Below, piece by piece: positions 2,206 to 15,268 of a stretch of 15,268 bases of DNA. The position numbers and the translations under genes are program-made. The stretch spans positions 1 to 15,268 of the forward strand of contig DAIEML010000028.1 of NCBI GenBank assembly GCA_027349615.1, given 5' to 3'. The DNA is from Ignavibacteriales bacterium (GTDB lineage Bacteria > Bacteroidota > Ignavibacteria > Ignavibacteriales > Ignavibacteriaceae). Position 1 is the first letter of the stretch. Every line of letters begins with the position of its first letter. The notes below the pieces were generated by a model, which saw only the letters and a list, made by a program, of their open reading frames with translations, made no database searches and was not told the DNA's origin.

Positions 2206-2232
2206 TAAACTTTTTTTTCACACAGCCGATAA
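2206..2232 (+). promoter_or_regulatory. Sigma-28 (FliA/SigD) promoter of the flagellin gene
   Basis: TAAACTTT at 2206-2213 and GCCGATAA at 2225-2232 give TAAA-N15-GCCGATAA. This matches the classical sigma-28 consensus exactly in the -10 box, the -35 TAAA and the spacer length. The expected start of transcription is near 2239-2241, which leaves a leader of about 95 bases before the flagellin ATG. It identifies the downstream genes as late (class 3) flagellar genes. Confidence 0.93.
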
Positions 2233-3586: not shown

Positions 3587-5416
3587 ATGGCAACGACAAG
3601 TTCAGTAACATCAACAAGCTCAAATCCAAATTCAGTTAGCAGTCAAATTGATTCTCTTGTTGCTGCTTATACTCAACAATTAACCGATCAGAAAGTTACT
3701 CCTCTTCAAAACGATGAAAAAAGATATCAGGATATTTCAAACGGCTATGATGTCTTAACTAAGAATTTAACCGATTTGCAGACAAGCGTAAATAATTTGA
3801 TGCAGACCGGAACAAGCTCTGTATTCGAAGATAAAACTGCAAATTCATCAGACAGTAAGTTTGTAAGTGCAACTGCAACTAGTGCAGCTTCATCAAGTGG
3901 TTACGATCTTAGAGTTAGCCAGCTTGCAAAAAGCGATGTTGCAGTATCACAGGATCAAACATCTTCCACAGCAAATGCTATAATTGGAACACATACGTTT
4001 GATATTTATGCTGGAGGGGGAACTGCTGGGCAGCTTGTTAGTCATGTGTCTGTTACTTTTGGTGCCAGCGAAACAAACCAAACTGCAATGCAGAAAATTG
4101 CCAGCGCAATTAATTCTAGTACTGCAGTAGTTACATCCGGTGCTAAAACAGATACTGCAATTCCTGCCGGAGGAGCAGCAACATCATTTACAATTAATCT
4201 TAATGGAACCACTACCACAATTCCTGTAACTAATGTTAGCTCTTACGGTGCCATGATGGATAATATTGTAGCTCAGGTAACGGCACTGGTACCTGGATTA
4301 ACAGTACAAAAACTTGCTAACACTCCGTCTGCTGGTCAGGATCAGCTTCAGATCAAGGTAAACAATCCTACAAATTATATAACAATAACTCCTCCAGCAA
4401 GCGGATATGATGTTGTTACTGATTTGGGAATTGGAGTTACTAATTTAGTTGCGGCTTCCGGAGTTGTTACCGGCTCAGTCTTTTCGCCTACAAGCACTAC
4501 TTCGCAGGTATCTATTACAGCAAATAAAACCGGGTTAGATTATCGAATTGAAGATCTTGTCGATACCGGCACAGGTACAGCTTTATCTTCTATAGGATTA
4601 AACTTAGGTACAACTCGTCCTACTTTCAGCCAAGGTACAACACCAAATACACCGGGATTTATTTATCCCGATACTACGACTGCCAACAACTTGTTGAATG
4701 CAAAGTTTACTTTTAACAGTTTGAACATACAACGAAATTCAAACAACATAAGTGACCTGGCAAGCGGTGTAACTTTTAATTTGAATGCAGTGCAGCAGTC
4801 TACCGATCCTGATACCATGGTAACTGTACAGCCAGACGTAAGTACAATTACTTCCAGCATTCAGGATTTTATTACAAAATACAATGCTGTTTATACCAAC
4901 ATAAAACAAAACAGTATTTCAAGTTTGAGTGAGCAGGGAATTTTTGTCGGTGATTCGAATGCGCAAACTTTATTCCAGACTCTTTCAAATCAAGCTCTAG
5001 GAAAAGTACCAGGAATACCAACTGGAAATCTTAATTTCTTAGCGTTGCTGGGAATAACTTTCGATGCTACAAACGGATTAAACATATCCGATAATAATCA
5101 ATTAAAAAGCCAAATAACATCTGTCCCGGACCAGGTAGGTGCGATTTTTAATTCAAGCAGCGGAATTGCAACTACACTTTATAATGATGTTACACCGTAC
5201 CTTGGCGCCGGCGGTTTCTTAGCTAAGACGAAACAGATTTTTGGAGATAATATTCAGAACCTTAGTGATAGAATTACAACAGCAAAGACGCAAATTGATA
5301 CTCAAGCCCAAGCTTTAAGAGATGAATATGTCAAACTCCAGGTAGAAATGTCTCAGCTTTCATCTACCTACTCAATGTTTGGTATAGGAAACACAACTAA
5401 TACTTTATTTGGTTAA
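3587..5416 (+). CDS. fliD: Flagellar filament cap protein FliD (hook-associated protein 2)
   Basis: FliD caps the filament tip and promotes insertion of flagellin. The protein has 609 residues. An N-terminal FliD_N region (about 15-120) includes SQIDSLVAAYTQQLTDQ, equivalent to the usual GLASGLDVDSIV start, and a helix through DVLTKNLTDLQTSVNNLM. A long Thr/Ser/Gly-rich central part (about 120-370) corresponds to the variable D2/D3 surface domains. A FliD_C region (about 380-595) begins with SIQDFITKYNAVYTNIK and ends in a coiled coil before FGIGNTTNTLFG. No cysteine is seen. GGAG at 3577-3580, inside the end of fliS, serves as the ribosome binding site, so the two genes are coupled. The stop overlaps the next start (TAATG). 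Confidence 0.93.
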   Translation: MATTSSVTSTSSNPNSVSSQIDSLVAAYTQQLTDQKVTPLQNDEKRYQDISNGYDVLTKNLTDLQTSVNNLMQTGTSSVFEDKTANSSDSKFVSATATSAASSSGYDLRVSQLAKSDVAVSQDQTSSTANAIIGTHTFDIYAGGGTAGQLVSHVSVTFGASETNQTAMQKIASAINSSTAVVTSGAKTDTAIPAGGAATSFTINLNGTTTTIPVTNVSSYGAMMDNIVAQVTALVPGLTVQKLANTPSAGQDQLQIKVNNPTNYITITPPASGYDVVTDLGIGVTNLVAASGVVTGSVFSPTSTTSQVSITANKTGLDYRIEDLVDTGTGTALSSIGLNLGTTRPTFSQGTTPNTPGFIYPDTTTANNLLNAKFTFNSLNIQRNSNNISDLASGVTFNLNAVQQSTDPDTMVTVQPDVSTITSSIQDFITKYNAVYTNIKQNSISSLSEQGIFVGDSNAQTLFQTLSNQALGKVPGIPTGNLNFLALLGITFDATNGLNISDNNQLKSQITSVPDQVGAIFNSSSGIATTLYNDVTPYLGAGGFLAKTKQIFGDNIQNLSDRITTAKTQIDTQAQALRDEYVKLQVEMSQLSSTYSMFGIGNTTNTLFG

Positions 5417-5748
5417 TGGTTATGTTATCAGTAGAAATTGAAAATATCAAAAATATACTTCGAGAAGTTATTAAAGATTTGAGTTTAATTGAAACTGATG
5501 ATTTCCAGGCTAATTTTGAAAGTGCTAAAGATAAGATGCGAATATTTCATGAAATGAAAGAAAAATTGATAAAAGACTATTCATTAGAAGAATTAAGAAA
5601 CTATGAACAAGAATTGCTAATTATCACTAAACAAATTAACAATAAATACGATAATGTAATTGAAGTTAAAAAGAAACAACTTCAAGAAGTTGGTTTGAAG
5701 ATTAGACTACTTCAAAATAGAAAAAAATTAATAAACTATAGCAGGTAA
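5416..5748 (+). CDS. Small coiled-coil protein in the FliT position, putative flagellar chaperone
   Basis: This is a 110-residue, charged, almost wholly helical protein with no signal peptide or membrane segment, lysine-rich near the C terminus (KKKQLQEVGLKIRLLQNRKK, then LINYSR). Its size, helical character and place directly after fliD match FliT, the FliD-specific export chaperone, or a FlgN-like chaperone. Sequence identity to either family is not evident by eye, so this is a positional call. The ATG at 5416 overlaps the fliD stop; a second in-frame ATG at 5422 is also possible. There is no Shine-Dalgarno sequence, so translation probably depends on coupling to fliD. Confidence 0.68.
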   Translation: MVMLSVEIENIKNILREVIKDLSLIETDDFQANFESAKDKMRIFHEMKEKLIKDYSLEELRNYEQELLIITKQINNKYDNVIEVKKKQLQEVGLKIRLLQNRKKLINYSR

Positions 5749-5754
5749 CTAGAA

Positions 5755-6018
5755 ATGGATATTAAGCCACTTTCTAATAATATATATTTTCCAAAAGAAC
5801 TACCGCAAAACGGTAAGGAACAATCAAAAAATCAGAATTATAAAATACAGGATAAATTGGAGCTTTCGCAAGAAGTTCAGAATATGAAAAATCCAAACAC
5901 ACAAGACACAAAGCTTGCACAAATTTCAGAGAAGATTAAAAACAATTATTACAATTCTGATGAAGTAATTAATAAAGTAGCTGATAAGATTTATTCTGAA
6001 ATTTCGAAAACCAAATAA
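5755..6018 (+). CDS. flgM: FlgM-like anti-sigma-28 factor
   Basis: The protein has 87 residues and is hydrophilic, as expected of the largely unfolded FlgM family (usually about 90-100 residues). KLELSQEVQNM (34-44) corresponds to the conserved (D)-V-E-L-S segment. ISEKIKNNYYNSDEVINKVA followed by DKIYSEI (57-83) corresponds to the C-terminal sigma-binding region, normally I--I-----G-Y-VD---IA-K--. FlgM binds and inactivates sigma-28 until the hook is complete and FlgM is exported. AGGT at 5743-5746 lies eight bases before the ATG, and the gene starts six bases after the preceding stop. It is therefore the last gene of the fliC-fliS-fliD operon, so sigma-28 would drive its own inhibitor. The call rests on motif pattern plus context. 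Confidence 0.75.
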   Translation: MDIKPLSNNIYFPKELPQNGKEQSKNQNYKIQDKLELSQEVQNMKNPNTQDTKLAQISEKIKNNYYNSDEVINKVADKIYSEISKTK

Positions 6019-6170: not shown

Positions 6171-6902
6171 ATGTCTACTATTGACGATAAAGTTCAAGAT
6201 AATAAGCTTCAAGTAATCGGGAAATTAACCGCAAGCTTAATTCATGAAATCCGAAATCCGCTTTCAGCAATAAAATTGAATCTTGATTATTTATCGATGA
6301 TTGAGCAAGAGCTTCCTAAAGAAGTAAATGAATCTGTAGATGTTTGCAAAGATGCGCTGTCAAGAATTCAATACTTAATAGATAATATGTTTACCTTTAC
6401 AAAACGAAATGCTAAAGGTGACCAGAAATGTTCTTTAAATGATATTACAAAAAATGCTGTCGGAATGATGAAAGCAAACGCCGAGCGGCGAAATATAAAT
6501 ATACAATTAGAATTAGATGAAAAACTGCCGCTTGGATATTTTGATAAAAGTAAGCTGCTTCAAGTATTTCTAAATCTTATTACTAACGCAATCGAATCAT
6601 GCGATGATCGAGGTAATATAAAAATTAGAACTTATTTTGAAGTGCCGGATTACATAATTTGGGATATTGAAGATAACGGCGTAGGAATTTGCGAAGACGA
6701 TAAAGAAAAAATATTCCAAGATTTTTTTACCAGCAAAGAAAAAGGAACGGGACTTGGTTTAAGTGTTTGCAAAATGCTTCTAAAAGAATATCAAGCTGAT
6801 TTAGGTTTTGAAAGCGAACTAGGGAAGGGCACTAAATTCTATATTAAATTTAATTCAAACCTTATGGATGTTAATGATGAAATTCAAAATATTAATAATT
6901 GA
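6171..6902 (+). CDS. Soluble histidine kinase without sensor domain, FlgS/NtrB-like
   Basis: The 243-residue protein consists of almost nothing but the catalytic core. The HisKA H-box is LTASLIHEIRNPLSAIKLNL, with phospho-acceptor H25. The HATPase_c domain shows the N-box NLITNAIESC (N139), the D-box DNGVGI (168-173) and the G2 box KGTGLGL (191-197). There is no PAS domain, membrane segment or signal peptide, so the input must come through a partner protein or the short N terminus. The HEIRNPL form of the H-box is typical of NtrB/AtoS-type kinases that phosphorylate sigma-54 activators, and the next gene encodes one. FlgS of Helicobacter and Campylobacter is likewise soluble and senses the state of flagellar assembly, so a similar role is inferred. 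An in-frame stop at 6165-6167 fixes the ATG as the earliest possible start; GAGGG at 6151-6155 is rather far upstream. Confidence 0.85.
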   Translation: MSTIDDKVQDNKLQVIGKLTASLIHEIRNPLSAIKLNLDYLSMIEQELPKEVNESVDVCKDALSRIQYLIDNMFTFTKRNAKGDQKCSLNDITKNAVGMMKANAERRNINIQLELDEKLPLGYFDKSKLLQVFLNLITNAIESCDDRGNIKIRTYFEVPDYIIWDIEDNGVGICEDDKEKIFQDFFTSKEKGTGLGLSVCKMLLKEYQADLGFESELGKGTKFYIKFNSNLMDVNDEIQNINN

Positions 6903-8268
6903 TGACGACCATCTGGTTTGTATTTCATTAAAAAAACTTTTAATGAAACTTGACTACGATGTTGAAATATGCATGGAAGGCAAAGATGCTTTAGATACTG
7001 TTGAAAGATATGAGCCTGATATTATTCTTCTTGATATCTACCTTACAACTCATAACGGTTTAGAATTATTAAAACAATTTCAGAAAAAATTTTACCATAT
7101 TCCTGTAATAATGATTACAGGTTATTCCGATGTTAAAATTGCAGTTACTGCAATTAAATCCGGTGCATTCGATTTTTTATTGAAACCTATTGATATTGAA
7201 CAACTCCAAATGGTTCTAAAAAAAGCGCTGGAAAATATAACATTGAAAGCGGAGGTTGAAAAGCTTAACCAGATTATTCATCAGGATGAATTACCAAAAG
7301 AATTTTTTGGTAAGAGCAACAAAATATTAAGACTGCTTTCTTCAGTTGAAAAGTTAGCAAAAAGTTCAGACACAACTATTTTAATTGAAGGAGAAAGCGG
7401 AACTGGTAAAGAAATTTTTGCAAGGTTTATTCATCAAAGCAGCCCACGAAGAACCGGACCGTTTATTCAAATAAATTGTTCTGCAATTCCCAAAGAATTA
7501 GCAGAAAGTGAATTATTCGGACATGAAAAAGGTGCTTTTACCGGCGCTTTACAAAAAACCAAACTAGGAAAATTCGAACTTGCAAACGGCGGTACAATTT
7601 TACTTGATGAAATTGGTGAACTGTCTTTAGATCTTCAAGTAAAACTTTTAAGAGTTTTGCAGGAGAGAAAATTTTATAGATTAGGCGGTGAAAAAGAAAT
7701 TTCTATTGATGTTAGAGTATTAGCTGCAACAAATAAAAATTTGGAAGATGAAGTTAAAAGAGGAAATTTTCGAGAAGATCTTTATTACAGATTGAATGTT
7801 GCGAAAATTAATGTGCCCCCCCTTCGCGAAAGGAAAGAAGATATTCCAATTCTTGTCTTAAGATTTTTAAACGAATTCGCTTCAAAGTTTAATAAGCAAA
7901 TTAGAGGGATCGATAAAAATGCGCTTGATATTCTCGTTTCATATCAATGGAAAGGGAACATACGGGAATTAAGAAATGTTATGGAACGCGCTGCTTTATT
8001 AATTGAAGATGATGAGTTGAAAGAATATCATTTAAATTTTCTCATTGATTCTAATTCACCTAAAGAAATTGAAGATGAAAATTTTGTTTTAAAAATTCCA
8101 TCTAAAGGTGTAAAAATTGATTTAGTGTTAAGAACTTTAATTCAACAGACTCTTAAAATTACAAAAGGCAATCAAGTTAAAGCTGCTAAAATTTTGGGAT
8201 TATCTCGTTCAAAGCTTAGATACCGAATGGAACAACTTGGAATTGAAGTAACTAAAAACATTAAGTAA
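6877..8268 (+). CDS. NtrC-family sigma-54-dependent response regulator, FlgR-like
   Basis: From the chosen start the protein has 463 residues in three domains. The receiver (1-120) has acidic residues IIDDD, phospho-acceptor D53 (LLDI), T81 and K103. The sigma-54 AAA+ domain (about 143-370) has Walker A GESGTGKE (172-179), GAFTGA (219-224) for contact with sigma-54, Walker B ILLDE (D244, E245) and arginine-containing motifs around [10 protein letters not shown] and [10 protein letters not shown]. The Fis-type helix-turn-helix lies at 431-456 ([20 protein letters not shown]). All catalytic motifs are intact. ATGs occur at 6868, 6874 and 6877; 6877 gives the usual start just before the first strand, with GGA at 6866-6868 as a weak ribosome binding site. 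The gene overlaps the kinase gene by 26 bases, so the two are a coupled pair. Beside flagellar genes, control of sigma-54-dependent rod/hook genes is the likely role (inference). Confidence 0.9.
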
Positions 8269-10504
8269 GTTTTTTTGCCGCACCTGGAATTGTAAGAATA
8301 AATTCACTTCCTTTCCATTTTTCACTATTTACTTTTATTTCAACATTATTTATCTCAGCATATTTTTTTACAAGTGCCAGTCCTAAGCCAGTGCCTTCAA
8401 AGTGCCGATTTATTCCTGTTTCTTCCTGCGAAAAAGGATTGAAAAGATAGGGAAGATATTCTGAAGAAATACCAATACCGGTATCGCAGATTTTTACACA
8501 AAGTGAATTTGAATTTTTATTATAAACATCAACTTTGATTTCGCCTTCATTAGTATATTTTATTGCATTATCAATCAGATTTAAAAATATTTGTCCCAAA
8601 GAATAATGATCGCCATAAATAATAGTGTTTGAGGCTTGCTTGTTATAAACGAGAGACAAGTTTTTCATTTTTGCGCGAGAATAAAATTCAAGAATCAAAT
8701 CTTCAAGTAAATCATTATCAATATCAAATTCGCTGAAGTTAGTATCAAAATTTCCAGTTTGAATCCTGGATAGATTAAGTATCAATTCTATAGATCTAAT
8801 TAAACGCTGCGAGCTTGAATCTATTACATTAAATGTTGATTCCATACCTTGAGGTAATTTTTCTTCAAACTCTTCTTTGAGAAGCGATGTATAAGTTAAA
8901 ATATTATTTAGCGGAGTCCTGATTTCGTGCGACATTTGAGCTAGAAATTCTGTTTTTAATCTATCGGATTTTTCAGCTTCATCTTTTGCCTGAATTAATT
9001 GTGCTTCTTGAATTTTTCTATCAGTTATATCCTGCAAAATAATTAAGTAATATTCTATCTTATTTCCATCAACAATAATTGGCGAGATGTTTACAGATTC
9101 CCAATATCTCAAGTCATCTTTTCTTTTATGCTGAAATTCACCTTTCCATTCTTTACCTGAAGAAATTGTTTCCCAAATTAAGTCTTTCTCCTCAGAAGAT
9201 AATTCATGAGCTGCTAAAATACTTGGGCGTTTTCCAATTACTTCTTCTGGAGTAAATCCGCTTGCATGGATAAATTTAGAATTTGCATATTCTATTTTTC
9301 CATCCTTGCTCATTATTACTACCGATACCGGGCTTTGTTGAATTGCTCGACTTAATTTGAAAATTTCTTCTTCAGCTTTTTTACGCTTATTTATATCTCT
9401 TACAAAACCTTCAAAGTATAACGTTCTTCCTAAGGAATCTTTTATTGAATGTGCGTTTAACTGAATCCAAATCGGTTCACCGTTTTTCTTTTTCCATTTA
9501 AGCTCAACATCAGCAGCGTTGCCCATCGGCTCATATTCTTTAATTAATTTTTCTCGCTCTTCAGCATCAAAATAAATATCTCTTTTAAGATTTAGCTTTA
9601 AAATTTCTTCTGTCGAAGAATAATCCAATAATTTAGCCAATGCCAAATTAGCAGCTAAAAAATTTCCTTCTTGATTTGATCGGTAGATGCCTATTGGTGC
9701 AAATTCGAAAATGTCTTTATATTTTTGCTCGGAATTCTTTAATGCAATCTCATCTTGTTTATGCTTTGTAATGTCTCTGGCAATTCCTTGGATTGCAAAC
9801 GGATGTCCATTCTTAAATATCAGTGAGCCGTTTGTTTCAATATAAATTTCTTCGCCAGATTGATTAATAATTTTATATTCTTGAACACCGCTCTGGAAAT
9901 TGTTTTGCTTAATTTCATGAATTATTTTATTGGCAATTGAAAGCTGAGCAGGGTCAATAAAATTTCTGATATTTAATTTTTTAATTTCTTCTTTCCCATA
10001 GCCGAACAATTTTAACGCTGCATTATTAGCATCAATAAAATTTCCATCGAAGTCGTGTATATAAACTAAATCAAGTGAATAATTAAAAAGTGCATTGTAC
10101 CGTTCTTCGCTTTCTCTTATTTTTTGATCCGCATGAAATTTATTAACCACCATTTCGATGGTTCGAATTAAATTAAGTTCATCCAAAGGTTTAATTAGAA
10201 ATGTTATTGATCCGGAATATTTTTTCTTATACAGCAATGATTCGTATGAATGTTCAACGATATAAATTTTGGGGATTTTAATATTTTCTAAAATTTTATC
10301 AACAACAATTTTTTCTTCGCTAAAGCTATCTGATTTTAAATTCTTAATTATAAGTTCAGGCTCATTTTCATTTAATACATCAATTATTTTTTCACTGGAT
10401 TTTATAATACCTACTACTTTGTATCCAATCTCTTCCAAAATTTTTTTTAGACGAGTTGCATCGTTGAAATTATTTTCAATTATCAAAATTCTGTAGCTGT
10501 TCAT
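8261..10504 (-). CDS. Multi-PAS histidine kinase with degenerate N-terminal receiver (pseudo-receiver)
   Basis: The 747-residue protein has no membrane segment. Residues 4-122 have the receiver fold pattern, but the phosphorylation site is gone: N11 and N12 replace the acidic pair, N55 (LIIKNL) replaces the phospho-acceptor Asp and V83 replaces the conserved Thr/Ser; K105 (LIKPL) is kept. Three PAS domains follow (about 130-250, 257-375 and 383-505), then HisKA FLAQMSHEIRTPLNNIL with H526, and HATPase_c with N646 (LIDNAIKY), DTGIGI (674-679) and GTGLGL (704-709). The catalytic core is intact. There is no output domain, so it must pass phosphate to a separate regulator. The gene lies 93 bases downstream of a related kinase with an intact receiver, on the same strand, and has no recognisable promoter of its own, so it is probably cotranscribed. 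Its 3' end overlaps the NtrC-type gene tail-to-tail by 8 bases. Confidence 0.88.
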   Translation of the reverse strand: MNSYRILIIENNFNDATRLKKILEEIGYKVVGIIKSSEKIIDVLNENEPELIIKNLKSDSFSEEKIVVDKILENIKIPKIYIVEHSYESLLYKKKYSGSITFLIKPLDELNLIRTIEMVVNKFHADQKIRESEERYNALFNYSLDLVYIHDFDGNFIDANNAALKLFGYGKEEIKKLNIRNFIDPAQLSIANKIIHEIKQNNFQSGVQEYKIINQSGEEIYIETNGSLIFKNGHPFAIQGIARDITKHKQDEIALKNSEQKYKDIFEFAPIGIYRSNQEGNFLAANLALAKLLDYSSTEEILKLNLKRDIYFDAEEREKLIKEYEPMGNAADVELKWKKKNGEPIWIQLNAHSIKDSLGRTLYFEGFVRDINKRKKAEEEIFKLSRAIQQSPVSVVIMSKDGKIEYANSKFIHASGFTPEEVIGKRPSILAAHELSSEEKDLIWETISSGKEWKGEFQHKRKDDLRYWESVNISPIIVDGNKIEYYLIILQDITDRKIQEAQLIQAKDEAEKSDRLKTEFLAQMSHEIRTPLNNILTYTSLLKEEFEEKLPQGMESTFNVIDSSSQRLIRSIELILNLSRIQTGNFDTNFSEFDIDNDLLEDLILEFYSRAKMKNLSLVYNKQASNTIIYGDHYSLGQIFLNLIDNAIKYTNEGEIKVDVYNKNSNSLCVKICDTGIGISSEYLPYLFNPFSQEETGINRHFEGTGLGLALVKKYAEINNVEIKVNSEKWKGSEFILTIPGAAKKLT

Positions 10505-10597: not shown

Positions 10598-13336
10598 CTA
10601 AACAATCGAGGCCGGTAAAGTGAAGGAAAAAGAGGAACCTTCTCCTAATTTGCTTTTTACCCAAATCTTGCCTCCTTGTCTTTCTATTAATTCTTTACAA
10701 ATTACAAGACCTAGCCCAGTACCAGATTCTCTCTCAGTTCCAAGCGTAGAAACTTGAGTATCAACCCTAAATAATTTTTGTAAATTATCTTCAGAAATTC
10801 CAACACCATTATCTATCACTGTTACTTTTATAAATTCATTTTCTTTTTCTGAAAAAATCTTTATTTCCCCTCCGGGCTTAGTAAATTTTATTGCGTTAGA
10901 AATTAAATTTTGTAATGTGGAAGTTAATACATTTATATCAGATTCTACAAATAAATTTTGACTTACATTATTTGTTAATCTGAGATTTTTATTATCTGCA
11001 TTTTGCTTTAGCAGATTTATTATATAAAGAACTTCTTCATAAAGTTCAATAGATGCCGGCTTAAGATCTAATTTACCTCTTTGAATTCTAGACCACTGAA
11101 GAAGATTTTCAATTAGATTAAATAAATTTTTAGCTGAGTTATGCAAATTATTAATGAAAAGTTTTATTTCATCTTGAGATAAGTTTTCATATTCTTCTTT
11201 AATAATATTTGATATGCCAAGTAATCCTTGGAATGGACTGCGGAGATCATGAGAGATTATAGAAAAGAATTTATCTTTTTCCGCATTAACTTCTTCCAAT
11301 TCCTTAGAATATTTTTTGATTGCTTCTTCAGCTTCTTTTCTTTCCGAAACATCAAATCCTAATCCAATTAGACCTACAACGTTTCCATTCTCATCTTTAA
11401 GCGGAACTTTTCTTGTTCCTATTGTAAAATATTTTCCATTAATTAAGATCTGTTCTTCTCTTATATAATGAACATTTCCTGAATTAATAACTTTTAAATC
11501 GTCAGCATTATATTTTTCAGCAATGTGGCTTGGCAATAATTCGAAATCTGTTTTACCTATTATTTCCTCTTTTGTATAACCCATTCCATCACAAAATTTT
11601 TGATTAACTATTAAGTAACGAAGATTTTTATCTTTGAAAAACGCCATTCCAGGTAAACTGTCTAAAAGAGTATTTACTTCAAGTTGACGTTTCCTCAATT
11701 CGTTTTCAACATGCTTCCTTTCGGTAATGTCTCTTATTATTACTTGAATCGAAGATTCATTCTGAAAAATAATCGGACTGGCAGATACTTCAACGCTAAC
11801 CGAAGTTCCATCTAACCGAAGGAATTTTTGTTCTTGTAAAAGAACATTATTTCCGTTCTTAAAATTATGTTTATTCCTTACTCTTACAATGTCAATTGAA
11901 TCCGGATGTAAAAACTTTGTAATCGATTTATCAATTATTTCTTCTTTCTTAGATGTTCCAAATAATCTTAGCGAAGCTTCGTTTATATAAATGATTCTAC
12001 CTTTAGTGTGAACAATAACAGCGTCTGGTGATAATTCTACTAATTGGCGATAACGCTTTTCACTTTCTACTAAAGCTTCTTCCATCTGTTTTCTTTCGGT
12101 AATATCACGAGAAATATTATGGAAGCCGATAACATTATTATTCTCTAAAAGTAAAGTTGTATTTTGACCATACCACTTTATCTCACCTGTTTTTGTATAA
12201 AATGGAAATTCTGTATAAGCCGATTGCTGTCTGTTTTTAAATTGTTTCAAATAAAAGATTTTTACTTTCTCCCGATATTCCGGAAGTATTAAATCCATAC
12301 AATTTAGTTTCAGCAGCTCGTTTGACGAATACCCAGTATCTATAACTCCGGAATTATTCACGTAAGTAAAATTTCCTTGAAGATCATTTGTGAAGATTAT
12401 GTCAGTTGCATTTTCAATTACCTGCCGGTACCTTCTTTCTGATTCGATGAGGTTTGATTCAGTTAATTTATTCTTTGCTTCAAGCTCAATGTTTTGGATT
12501 GCCAAACTGATGTCTGTTGCAATACTATTTATAAAAGAAATTTCTTCACGATCAAAATTTTTATTCATTATGGAGAATGAAATTATACCAAATAATTTTC
12601 CATCAGTCTCTAATTTTATAAATAGAAATTCTTTTTCATTAATTTTATCAAAGAAAACATTTCCATTCTCATGATTTTTGTGGTTATTGTTAGAAAATAT
12701 TTTTTGAGTCCAGCCTGCATTATTATTGTTCATTGAATCTAGAATGATTTTAGACTCTTTGGACAAATTATATTCCGCAAATTCATCTATTTGAAATTGA
12801 TTATTAAAAACAGCAATCCAAGTTGAACTAAAAACTTTTGATTCGGGAAAACTTTTGCAAATTTTTTCTAACAATTTATTAAGTTGTTTCTCGGATGCAA
12901 TTATTTTATCTATTTTCCTGGCACATTGCAGCAATGAATCTAGACGAAATTTTTTCTTTTCTATTTTGCTTTTATAAAGAGCCATTTCAATTGATGCGTA
13001 AAGTTCTCTATCATTAAAAGGTTTTATCAAATAACCATATGGCTCTGAAAGCTTTGCATGTTCTAAAAGATGCTTATTAAAATATGCGGTAAGAAAAATG
13101 ATCGGAACAAAATATTCTTGTCGTATTCTTTTAGCGGCTTCAGTTCCTGTCATTTCGCTGTTAAGGACAATGTCCATTAAAACGAGATCAATGTTATTAT
13201 CTTTAGTTTTTAAAATAGCCTCTTCGCCGGTAGAAACAATTGAGTTTACTTCATAACCTTTCTCTTCCAAAGAAGATTTTATCAGCTCAGCTATTTCCGG
13301 TTCATCCTCTACAACTAATATTTTGGAACTATTCAT
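10598..13336 (-). CDS. Receiver-GAF-PAS-PAS-PAS histidine kinase
   Basis: The 912-residue cytoplasmic protein starts with an intact receiver (5-120): acidic E10/D11/E12, phospho-acceptor D55 (LVLMDIVL), T83 and K105 (LIKPF). A GAF-like domain follows (about 137-290, including LFGIISFSIMNK). Three PAS domains come next (about 300-420, 425-545 and 550-672), then HisKA SIISHDLRSPFQGLLGI with H696, and HATPase_c with N814 (LISNAIKF), DNGVGI (842-847) and GTGLGL (872-877). A receiver at the N terminus means that the kinase is probably controlled by phosphorylation from another kinase. GGGGAAG about ten bases upstream of the ATG (13346-13352, minus strand) is a suitable ribosome binding site. A sigma-28-like box at 13426-13452 faces this gene, suggesting expression with late flagellar genes. 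The signal and the target regulator are unknown. Confidence 0.9.
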   Translation of the reverse strand: MNSSKILVVEDEPEIAELIKSSLEEKGYEVNSIVSTGEEAILKTKDNNIDLVLMDIVLNSEMTGTEAAKRIRQEYFVPIIFLTAYFNKHLLEHAKLSEPYGYLIKPFNDRELYASIEMALYKSKIEKKKFRLDSLLQCARKIDKIIASEKQLNKLLEKICKSFPESKVFSSTWIAVFNNQFQIDEFAEYNLSKESKIILDSMNNNNAGWTQKIFSNNNHKNHENGNVFFDKINEKEFLFIKLETDGKLFGIISFSIMNKNFDREEISFINSIATDISLAIQNIELEAKNKLTESNLIESERRYRQVIENATDIIFTNDLQGNFTYVNNSGVIDTGYSSNELLKLNCMDLILPEYREKVKIFYLKQFKNRQQSAYTEFPFYTKTGEIKWYGQNTTLLLENNNVIGFHNISRDITERKQMEEALVESEKRYRQLVELSPDAVIVHTKGRIIYINEASLRLFGTSKKEEIIDKSITKFLHPDSIDIVRVRNKHNFKNGNNVLLQEQKFLRLDGTSVSVEVSASPIIFQNESSIQVIIRDITERKHVENELRKRQLEVNTLLDSLPGMAFFKDKNLRYLIVNQKFCDGMGYTKEEIIGKTDFELLPSHIAEKYNADDLKVINSGNVHYIREEQILINGKYFTIGTRKVPLKDENGNVVGLIGLGFDVSERKEAEEAIKKYSKELEEVNAEKDKFFSIISHDLRSPFQGLLGISNIIKEEYENLSQDEIKLFINNLHNSAKNLFNLIENLLQWSRIQRGKLDLKPASIELYEEVLYIINLLKQNADNKNLRLTNNVSQNLFVESDINVLTSTLQNLISNAIKFTKPGGEIKIFSEKENEFIKVTVIDNGVGISEDNLQKLFRVDTQVSTLGTERESGTGLGLVICKELIERQGGKIWVKSKLGEGSSFSFTLPASIV

Positions 13337-13372
13337 TATCTTAAAACTTCCCCATAAAAATACCTTTGTTAA

Positions 13373-13390
13373 AAATGAGGTTTCTCATTT
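13373..13390 (-). other. Hairpin in the leader of the receiver/GAF/PAS kinase mRNA
   Basis: On the minus strand the leader reads AAATGAG-AAAC-CTCATTT, a perfect 7-bp stem followed directly by TTA (the arm and tail give five T in a row). It lies between the predicted start of transcription (about 13419) and the kinase ATG. It could be a weak attenuator or a stabilising structure. The stem has only two G-C pairs, so termination would be inefficient. Confidence 0.4.
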
Positions 13391-13425
13391 GTGAATTAAT
13401 ATTAGTATATGCCCTCTATATATCA

Positions 13426-13452
13426 TTATCGAATCTTTTTTATGATTATTTA
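13426..13452 (-). promoter_or_regulatory. Sigma-28-like promoter facing the kinase gene
   Basis: Read on the minus strand, TAAA (13452-13449) is followed by exactly 15 bases and then TTCGATAA (13433-13426). This differs from the flagellin -10 GCCGATAA only in the first two bases and is identical to the -10 box in front of cheW. The predicted start of transcription is near 13419, giving a leader of about 80 bases. Confidence 0.68.
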
Positions 13453-13454
13453 AT

Positions 13455-13473
13455 ATTTAAAACAATTTTAAAT
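13455..13473. repeat. Inverted repeat beside the kinase-facing promoter
   Basis: ATTTAAAA-CAA-TTTTAAAT has perfect 8-bp arms around a three-base centre and lies two bases upstream of the -35 box of the minus-strand promoter. It could be an operator or an UP-like AT element for the divergent promoters. The AT-only sequence makes chance occurrence possible. Confidence 0.35.
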
Positions 13474-13567
13474 GATTAATAATTATTCCCTTTCAATAGT
13501 TAGCGATAGAAAACATTGCAGCATAATAAAAAAAAGAATGTGCGATTTTTAATTTAATCAACTTAAC

Positions 13568-13594
13568 TAAAGAAAGGCAAAATAAATTCGATAA
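13568..13594 (+). promoter_or_regulatory. Sigma-28-like promoter of cheW-mcp
   Basis: TAAA at 13568-13571 is followed by exactly 15 bases and TTCGATAA at 13587-13594. Spacer length and the CGATAA core agree with the flagellin promoter, and the -10 box is identical to that of the divergent promoter at 13426-13452. Predicted start near 13601, about 49 bases before the cheW ATG. Chemotaxis genes are common sigma-28 targets, which supports the call. Confidence 0.72.
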
Positions 13595-13649
13595 TACTAT
13601 GAACGTGGATAAAAGAAATTTCAATTTTGTCAATGAAAAGGATAATTAG

Positions 13650-14135
13650 ATGACAAATTTAGAAGAACAAAAAAAGGAAACGACAGAGCTGCTTCAGCTT
13701 GTAAGCTTTACAATCGGCAATGAAGAATTCGGTGTTGATATTTTATTTGTACAGGAAATTAACCGGATGATTCAAATAACTAAAGTTCCAAATGCACCTT
13801 CTTTTGTTGACGGAGTAATAAATTTAAGAGGGCGTATAATTCCTGTTATTGATCTTAGAGCTAAATTGGGATTTGAACGAAAAGAACACGACAACAATAC
13901 GCGGATTATTGTCGTAGAAGTTTCCGGCAAAGTTGTAGGTTTTATTGTTGATGCTGTGAAAGAAGTTTTAAGAATTCCTAAAAGCATAACAGAACCACCT
14001 CCGGAATTGGTTGCCGGAGTTAATTCAGAATTTATTATGGCTGTAGGAAAATTAGAAGACAGGTTGATTACACTAATTGATCTTGAAAAAATTCTTTCCA
14101 ACAATGAAAAACAAAGCTTAAGCAACGTTGCCTAA
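13650..14135 (+). CDS. cheW: Chemotaxis coupling protein CheW
   Basis: CheW is the scaffold that links chemoreceptors to the kinase CheA at the inner face of the membrane. The 161-residue protein is a single CheW domain (about 15-152). Typical motifs are SFTIGNEEFGVDILFVQEI near the start, VPNAPSFVDGVINLRGRIIP and VIDLRAKLG in the middle, and VGFIVDAVKEVLRI towards the second SH3-like half; it ends with LITLIDLEKIL. It has the usual length and no extra domain. AAAAGGA (13636-13642) lies seven bases upstream of the ATG. A chemoreceptor gene follows after 38 bases, so the two probably form one operon driven by the sigma-28-like promoter at 13568. Confidence 0.95.
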   Translation: MTNLEEQKKETTELLQLVSFTIGNEEFGVDILFVQEINRMIQITKVPNAPSFVDGVINLRGRIIPVIDLRAKLGFERKEHDNNTRIIVVEVSGKVVGFIVDAVKEVLRIPKSITEPPPELVAGVNSEFIMAVGKLEDRLITLIDLEKILSNNEKQSLSNVA

Positions 14136-14173
14136 TTAAATATTTTCTATTTCATAAATATTTGAGGATGGCT

Positions 14174-15268
14174 ATGGACTGGTTTAATAATCTAAACCTT
14201 AAGGGAAAGCTATTAATAAATTCAACTTTGATAATTGTATTTTTAATAGTAATTGGTTATTTCGGATATACTACCCTAATTAATATTACCGGACAAGCGA
14301 AAGTAATTTATGAAAGCCCTTTAATTGCGCTTCAGCAGTTAGGAAACGCCAATACTATTTTTATACAACAGCGTGCCGATAATAGAATGCTGCTGGATAA
14401 TAACGATGCAAATAATAAAGCTTTAGTTTTAAAAAAAGTAAATAAAGAAACTAGTGAATCCGAAAATTATTTTAAGGAATATTTAAAAGGAGAAATTACT
14501 GACCAAGAACAAATTTTAATTGATAAATTCCAAAATACATGGAAAACATATTTGCAGGAACGTAATAAAGCTATAGCTGCTGCAATGGATAATAATAATG
14601 ATCTTGCAAAAAGCATAATGTATGGAACATCTAAAGATCTTGCTGATTCTTCTGAAGCTGAGTTAAAAGCAATTATCGCATTTAATGTTGTTAAAGCCGG
14701 GCAAATGTATAATACTTTGTATAATGCTTCGCAGCAATCAAAAACAATGATTTTAATTCTTGTCCTTTTCTCTGTTCTTTTTTCACTTGCAGTTGGCCTT
14801 TTGATTGCAAAGCAAATTACCAAACCTGTAAAAGATTTGACTGAAAATGCTGACAAAATTGCAAATGGCAATCTTGAAGTATTAATAAACCAAACGACTA
14901 AAGATGAAGTCGGCAGACTTGCTGGTTCATTTAAAATTATGGTTGAGAAAATTAAAATGGGAATAGAAGAACTTCAGTCAGAAAAAGTTAACGTCCAAAA
15001 TAAAGTTGATGATGCCGTAAAAAAATCAGAAGAAGAAAAAGCATATTTATCTTTGAATGTAGAGAAGATTTTAGTAGGTATGGAAAAGTTTGCCGGCGGA
15101 GATTTAACAATTGGATTAGCAATTGAAAAAAATGATGAGATCGGTAAATTATCCGAAGGTTTCAATAAAGCAGTTAGTAACGTTGGCTCTTTACTTTCAC
15201 AAGTGAATGAGGCAGTTCAAGCCACAGCAAGTGCAAGCAACGAAATTTCATCGAGCACAGAACAAATG
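14174..15268 (+). CDS. Methyl-accepting chemotaxis protein, 3' truncated by the window edge
   Basis: The reading frame stays open to the last base; 365 residues are visible. The first membrane helix is at about 13-35 (LLINSTLIIVFLIVIGYFGY). A periplasmic four-helix-bundle (4HB_MCP-like) ligand-binding region covers 36-190. The second membrane helix is at 191-212 (MILILVLFSVLFSLAVGLLI). A HAMP domain follows at about 213-265 (starting KQITKPVKDLTENADKIANG), then a charged helix and a second HAMP-like segment at about 291-345 (FAGGDLTIGLAIEKNDEIGK). The window ends at the start of the cytoplasmic signalling coiled coil (ASASNEISSSTEQ). The ATG at 14174 is chosen because GAGG (14164-14167) lies six bases upstream; it abuts the in-frame ATG at 14168 and could not serve that one. 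The receptor probably signals through the adjacent CheW. Confidence 0.93.
   Translation, partial: MDWFNNLNLKGKLLINSTLIIVFLIVIGYFGYTTLINITGQAKVIYESPLIALQQLGNANTIFIQQRADNRMLLDNNDANNKALVLKKVNKETSESENYFKEYLKGEITDQEQILIDKFQNTWKTYLQERNKAIAAAMDNNNDLAKSIMYGTSKDLADSSEAELKAIIAFNVVKAGQMYNTLYNASQQSKTMILILVLFSVLFSLAVGLLIAKQITKPVKDLTENADKIANGNLEVLINQTTKDEVGRLAGSFKIMVEKIKMGIEELQSEKVNVQNKVDDAVKKSEEEKAYLSLNVEKILVGMEKFAGGDLTIGLAIEKNDEIGKLSEGFNKAVSNVGSLLSQVNEAVQATASASNEISSSTEQM

Follow-up and report, generated by a model that had tools for sequence, protein, structure and literature searches.

The window, which is the whole stretch of 15,268 bases analysed here, carries the genes of a flagellin, a CheW protein, a chemoreceptor-like protein and several sensor kinases (Table 1). 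Pfam also matches a FliS-like protein, barely above its score, and FliD. The cheW gene and that of a 912-residue kinase diverge from a 313-base intergenic region. The first-pass annotation had described the latter product as a receiver/GAF/PAS kinase; the receiver and PAS domains were confirmed, but GAF falls below the Pfam cut-off (24.7 vs 28.6 bits). The gene of a 747-residue kinase starts 93 nt downstream of the 912-residue kinase gene, and this gap holds a sigma-70-like match and no terminator-like match. Pfam finds no Response_reg match at E 0.001 in the N-terminus of the 747-residue kinase, where the phospho-acceptor Asp is apparently missing, as judged by eye. The gene that follows the 912-residue kinase gene varies, encoding 739 residues in G001 (MAG WY5.bin127, the nearest relative found, with a kinase 85% identical), 375 in G019 and 499 in G018, and in G014 and G020 no gene lies between the first kinase and the regulator. 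The response regulator after the histidine kinase of the window is of the sigma-54 type according to Pfam, and we take this histidine kinase and NtrC-type regulator to resemble the flagellar FlgS/FlgR pairs. Convincing sigma-54 promoters were found neither in the window nor in the flagellar stretch of G001. With up to two mismatches allowed, a search of L153-L156 for such promoters for the NtrC-type regulator gave 9 matches, and five shuffles gave 3-7, so no firm signal emerged.

Table 1. Genes and putative promoter sites of the window, with the basis of each assignment
Feature	Position	Strand	Basis or remark
Flagellin, 273 aa	2334..3155	+	Pfam
Putative sigma-28-type promoter of flagellin	2206..2232	+	pattern; equivalent position occupied in relatives
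Sigma-28-type site inside 110-aa ORF 5416-5748	5628..5654	+	pattern; recurs in relatives
87-aa FlgM-like anti-sigma candidate	5755..6018	+	Pfam FlgM 16.6 bits, E 0.0091
Histidine kinase and NtrC-type regulator adjoining the FlgM-like gene	6171-8268	+	
747-aa PAS kinase, receiver-like N-terminus	8261..10504	-	Pfam PAS, HisKA, HATPase
912-aa kinase: receiver, three PAS domains, HisKA, HATPase	10598..13336	-	Pfam
Putative sigma-28-type promoter towards the receiver/PAS kinase	13426..13452	-	exact pattern; predicted start ~13419
Putative sigma-28-type promoter towards cheW	13568..13594	+	exact pattern; predicted start ~13601
cheW, 161 aa	13650..14135	+	Pfam CheW E 7.6e-41
Chemoreceptor-like gene downstream of cheW, truncated at the window end	14162..15268	+	Pfam 4HB_MCP_1, HAMP

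Two sites of the layout TAAA-N15-TTCGATAA lie back to back in the intergenic region, and both direct reading and a pattern search place them where the first-pass annotation had. The cheW site reads TAAAGAAAGGCAAAATAAATTCGATAA and its 3' end is 55 nt from the cheW ATG at 13650, and the kinase site reads TAAATAATCATAAAAAAGATTCGATAA on the minus strand, with its 3' end 89 nt from the kinase ATG at 13336. Both conform to the sigma-28 pattern of TAAA, N15 and then NNCGATAA. The full consensus octamers TAAAGTTT and GCCGATAA are absent at both sites, the -10 element being TTCGATAA in each, and TAAA is followed by GAAA at the cheW site and by TAAT at the kinase site. The view that such sites are unlikely by chance was borne out, as TAAA-N17-CGATAA has 4 exact matches in the window against a mean of 0.13 in 200 dinucleotide shuffles (maximum 2, none with 4). 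None of 2000 dinucleotide shuffles of the intergenic region had exact sites in both directions, and 0.3% had one in a given direction.

The divergent cheW/receiver-kinase region was compared in ten genomes, namely the window, G001, G019, G017, G024, G018, G014, G020, G016 and G021, in which the kinase ranges from 656 to 922 residues. The cheW site is exact in all ten, 43-103 nt upstream of the start, and the kinase site is exact in six, with CGATTA in the other four. Seven genomes have 89-113 nt between the kinase site and the start codon, and the other three have 50, 165 and 340 nt. Shuffling the region of each genome gave a one-direction exact site in 0.1-1.0% of cases and both exact sites in 0/2000, for each of the ten. 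Between the window and G001, all 20 specified bases of the two sites are identical, against 159 of the 259 intergenic positions outside both sites (61%) and 21 of the 34 spacer positions. The change of CGATAA to CGATTA at the kinase site is one and the same in G014, G020, G018 and G024 (L180:16496-16522, L181:3215-3241, L179:14580-14606 and L114). In G018 a 455-aa ORF sits between cheW and the kinase gene. An exact site also lies closely upstream of cheW in G047 and G080, in which no receiver kinase passed the filter in the stretch read, and in G051 the closest exact site is more than 400 nt upstream of cheW.

The sites can also be set against the distribution of FliA (sigma-28) in the family of G001. 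Among 80 genomes of this family, FliA was found in 38, all of which are among the 39 with a flagellin-family protein. A close homologue of the kinase (E up to 1e-150) occurs in 8 of the 80, and all 8 encode FliA. A stricter motif, TAAACWWWT-N12-CGATAA, was derived from the flagellin and flgM-type sites and is matched at neither of the two intergenic sites. It has 163 matches in the 38 FliA genomes (mean 4.29), against 17 for a reversed control, and 25 matches in the 41 genomes that have neither FliA nor flagellin (mean 0.61), against 7 for the control; the two groups differ with a Mann-Whitney p of ~1e-12, kinship uncorrected. The single genome with flagellin in which no FliA was found has 8 matches. 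The conservation of the sites and the concentration of the stricter motif in FliA-encoding genomes make it very probable that the receiver/PAS kinase is under sigma-28 control. The proposal that a sigma-28-type promoter divergent from that of cheW ties the kinase to the flagellar regulon is thus well supported, because the sites recur in ten genomes, the stricter motif tracks FliA and the genomes bearing the homologue all encode FliA. Production of the kinase in flagellated cells only, as the first-pass annotation predicted, would be a further step, as would a transcript shared with the 747-residue kinase.

The broad ten-base pattern alone is unselective genome-wide. It has 57 matches in G001 against 37 for the reversed control, so raw genome-wide counts were rejected as proof, and its counts over the family, read by eye, do not single out the flagellated genomes. 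A genome scan had been proposed as a check on concentration at motility genes, and its outcome was mixed: 9 of the 57 matches fall in a 100-kb flagellar/chemotaxis stretch of the 3.5-Mb genome, against 0 of the 37 control matches, but many others lie inside unrelated genes. Nor is the pattern enriched before genes, since manual reading placed 13 of the 57 in intergenic positions with a start codon within 300 nt, against 6 of the 30 control matches examined out of 37. Signal is separated from noise only by place, conservation and the stricter motif. Six of the nine matches in the motility stretch are positioned as promoters, the other three being inside genes. Four of the six belong to flagellin, the kinase, cheW and, in an intragenic position, the FlgM-like gene; of the other two, one precedes a HEAT-repeat gene that is followed by cheR, and one lies 245 nt upstream of a chemoreceptor gene. 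Beyond the flagellar genes, intergenic sites of G001 (L095, L100, L177, position 1501) lie before the genes of a two-component-propeller protein and of two PAS proteins, one of the latter judged by eye. The lineage FliA may control several sensors, or these sites may stand there by chance. Other intergenic matches precede metG and an aspartokinase-like gene (both by eye) and further genes, and may be due to chance.

A further site, unlisted in the first-pass annotation, lies 100 nt upstream of the 87-residue FlgM-like ORF. This ORF misses the Pfam FlgM gathering score (16.6 vs 25 bits) and is a candidate FlgM anti-sigma factor by position and weak likeness. The site falls inside the 110-aa ORF, and several relatives have it at the equivalent position. 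Judged by eye, its in-frame translation gives a peptide resembling K-(Q/L)-I-x-x-x-(F/Y)-D in several of the relatives. Since the same bases encode a conserved peptide, the site is weakened as evidence of a promoter, and it was not retained as pure promoter evidence. According to PMC4183435, 30 of 52 E. coli FliA sites lie inside genes, and three of the intragenic promoters are responsible for canonical mRNAs downstream of them; a flgM promoter within a gene would therefore not be unusual.

The sigma factor itself seems to have an unusual architecture in this lineage. FliA of G001 has 208 residues (L121:1174-1800) and its gene follows a flhG-like gene; lineage FliA proteins have about 209 residues. 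TIGR02479 matches the G001 protein in two separate pieces of 86.6 and 65.3 bits, each under the cut-off of 189.6, and Pfam Sigma70_r2 and Sigma70_r4 are both present. Residues 41-94 and 158-238 of E. coli FliA (6pmi) align to it, with the intervening stretch unaligned. The AlphaFold model (mean pLDDT 74.8, pTM 0.41) has helices to residue 93 and from 138, low confidence between, and no helix between 94 and 137 except a three-residue one. A structure search with this model gave TM-scores of at most 0.43 against the PDB, low because the two domains float, with an integrative model and then WhiG in the top rows; these matches served only to see which sigma factors rank high. By sequence, the best PDB matches are sigma factors of the FliA/WhiG kind. 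The best 120 of 1982 FliA homologues have 186-213 residues with Pfam regions 2 and 4, and none has region 3. In a phylum-wide draw of 395 genomes, 60 had FliA matches: 27 single and near full length, one (G402) in two frames, and 32 partial or split inside frames of 245-439 residues.

Between positions 93 and 110 (G001 numbering), 38 lineage FliA proteins have 15-20 residues and 19 sigma-3-bearing ones from other Bacteroidota have 53-62. The 38 are the loci that passed a motif filter out of 55 scanned, two of which (L271 and L272) are sigma-3-bearing and were counted as such; the loci lacking the sigma-3 body are L121:1174-1800 (G001), L185-L214 and L248-L269. The sigma-3-bearing set comprises 19 of 22 loci. 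Among the failing three, L315 visibly has the sigma-3 stretch as printed, and L309 and L322 were left out, the wrong ORF having been taken. A tree groups the 38 into a single, weakly supported clade (0.24). Two sigma-3-bearing FliA genes checked in full also follow a flhG-like gene. The lineage FliA retains the helix preceding the deletion and also a stretch that presumably resembles the region-3.2 finger. Two positions separate the 19 sigma-3-bearing proteins completely from the 38 of the lineage (19/19 vs 38/38): at 93 the former have Asp and the latter Gln, and at 185, in region 4.2, the former have Glu and the latter Val or Ile. The lineage's FliA thus seems to be without the sigma-3 body.

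The flagellin promoters differ along with the sigma factor in the base after TAAA. That of the window reads TAAA-N15-GCCGATAA. Counting one site per genome, TAAAC stands in 32 of 33 genomes of the sigma-3-less lineage and TAAAG in 22 of 24 genomes of the sigma-3-bearing relatives, kinship uncorrected in both counts. The former side comprised 37 genomes, including the window and G058, in which no FliA was found; 35 were parsed and the layout precedes flagellin in 33. On the latter side, 32 genomes were asked, 30 had a flagellin locus, 29 were parsed and 24 carried a site when one mismatch was allowed. The base can matter, as in E. coli aer a G-to-A change after TAAA cut activity from 223 to 50 units, according to PMC2859248. 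C follows TAAA at 0/10 of the cheW sites and 0/10 of the kinase sites, which may be weaker than the flagellin site or reflect looser recognition. The suggestion that the first two -10 bases are relaxed locally holds, but the sigma-3-bearing relatives vary there too. The first base is G in 12/24 sigma-3-bearing and 6/33 sigma-3-less genomes (p ~0.02, kinship uncorrected), and the second is C in 13/24 and 19/33. Loss of sigma-3 as the cause of the relaxation is unsupported by these base counts.

We consider it likely, with a probability of roughly 0.86, that both intergenic sites function as class-3 flagellar promoters for RNA polymerase with the lineage's own FliA. The sites, their places and conservation, the presence of FliA in relatives and its co-occurrence with the motif are apparent from sequence; recognition by FliA and timing by the FlgM-like protein are inferred, and the organism of the window presumably has a FliA of the kind seen in its closest relative. 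A FlgM-like anti-sigma factor would hold FliA until it is exported, once the basal body is built. Free FliA would then initiate transcription in both directions, to the left into the kinase gene and to the right into cheW and the receptor gene that follows, and would co-activate flagellin and the FlgM-like gene. The kinase would be a late, motility-associated sensor.

It is unlikely that only the cheW site works, with the kinase site weak or decayed and the kinase made mainly from a housekeeping promoter. Such a state would suit the one-base difference in four of the ten genomes, and sigma-70-like matches do lie upstream of the kinase, at chance frequency (23 in a scan of 3.5 kb, where the mean is 19.0). 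However, the kinase site is exact in the other six and keeps 10/10 of its specified bases against G001, and the -33/-7 pattern, which we take to be the Bacteroidota-type promoter consensus, has no match in 13337-13649 (13 in the window vs 13.3 expected). It is more improbable still that the CGATAA elements are sites of another regulator rather than sigma-28 -10 elements. Their recognition by FliA is a prediction, which leaves this reading some room, but TAAA at a fixed N15 spacing fits the E. coli sigma-28 consensus given in PMC2859248, the layout precedes flagellin in nearly all parsed genomes and the motif tracks FliA. As for chance matches in AT-rich DNA, the ten-base pattern does have many apparently chance matches elsewhere in G001, yet the shuffles never yielded both sites in any of the ten regions and conservation stands above background; the genome comparison effectively refutes this reading.

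Beyond the window, the class-3 reading can be widened, at slightly better than even odds, to the whole Ignavibacteria-like Bacteroidota lineage. Its late flagellar regulon, including the kinase next to cheW, would be run by a FliA reduced to two domains by loss of the sigma-3 body, with the pre-deletion helix and a region-3.2-like finger retained. This FliA would prefer TAAAC over the TAAAG of sigma-3-bearing relatives at -35, plausibly because Val or Ile replaces Glu in region 4.2. That sigma-28 controls cheW and receptors is classical, and a receiver/PAS kinase would be a new member of this known kind of regulon. In the literature searched we found no report of a sigma-3-less FliA with a different base after TAAA, which does not establish its absence from print. 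Little-studied environmental bacteria gain a testable flagellar regulon to which a conserved sensor kinase is assigned. A sigma-3-less FliA that worked as predicted would reveal what in sigma-28 is dispensable for composite -10 reading and anti-sigma control. It would also provide a natural example in which the promoter code, here the base that follows TAAA, shifts along with the recognition helix.

The class-3 promoters of E. coli, read by FliA, have the consensus TAAAGTTT-N11-GCCGATAA (PMC2859248), and the class includes flgMN, fliC and motAB-cheAW (PMC4183435). The sites described here share TAAA and CGATAA at the same spacing and precede cheW, flagellin and a flgM-like gene. Unlike E. coli, the lineage varies in the first two -10 bases, has C and not G after TAAA at its flagellin promoters, and appears to count a receiver/PAS kinase among the targets. 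The lineage FliA resembles the FliA/WhiG factors (TIGR02479; E. coli FliA, 6pmi) in that it aligns in sigma-2 and sigma-4, has its best PDB sequence matches among them and is encoded after flhG; it differs in that the sigma-3 body seems missing and TIGR02479 is found only in two sub-cut-off pieces. Group IV (ECF) sigma factors have a two-domain layout of sigma-2 and sigma-4, as described in PMC10575876. The lineage FliA shares this layout, but it is nearest to FliA/WhiG by sequence, lies in a flagellar cluster and goes with promoters of the sigma-28 type.
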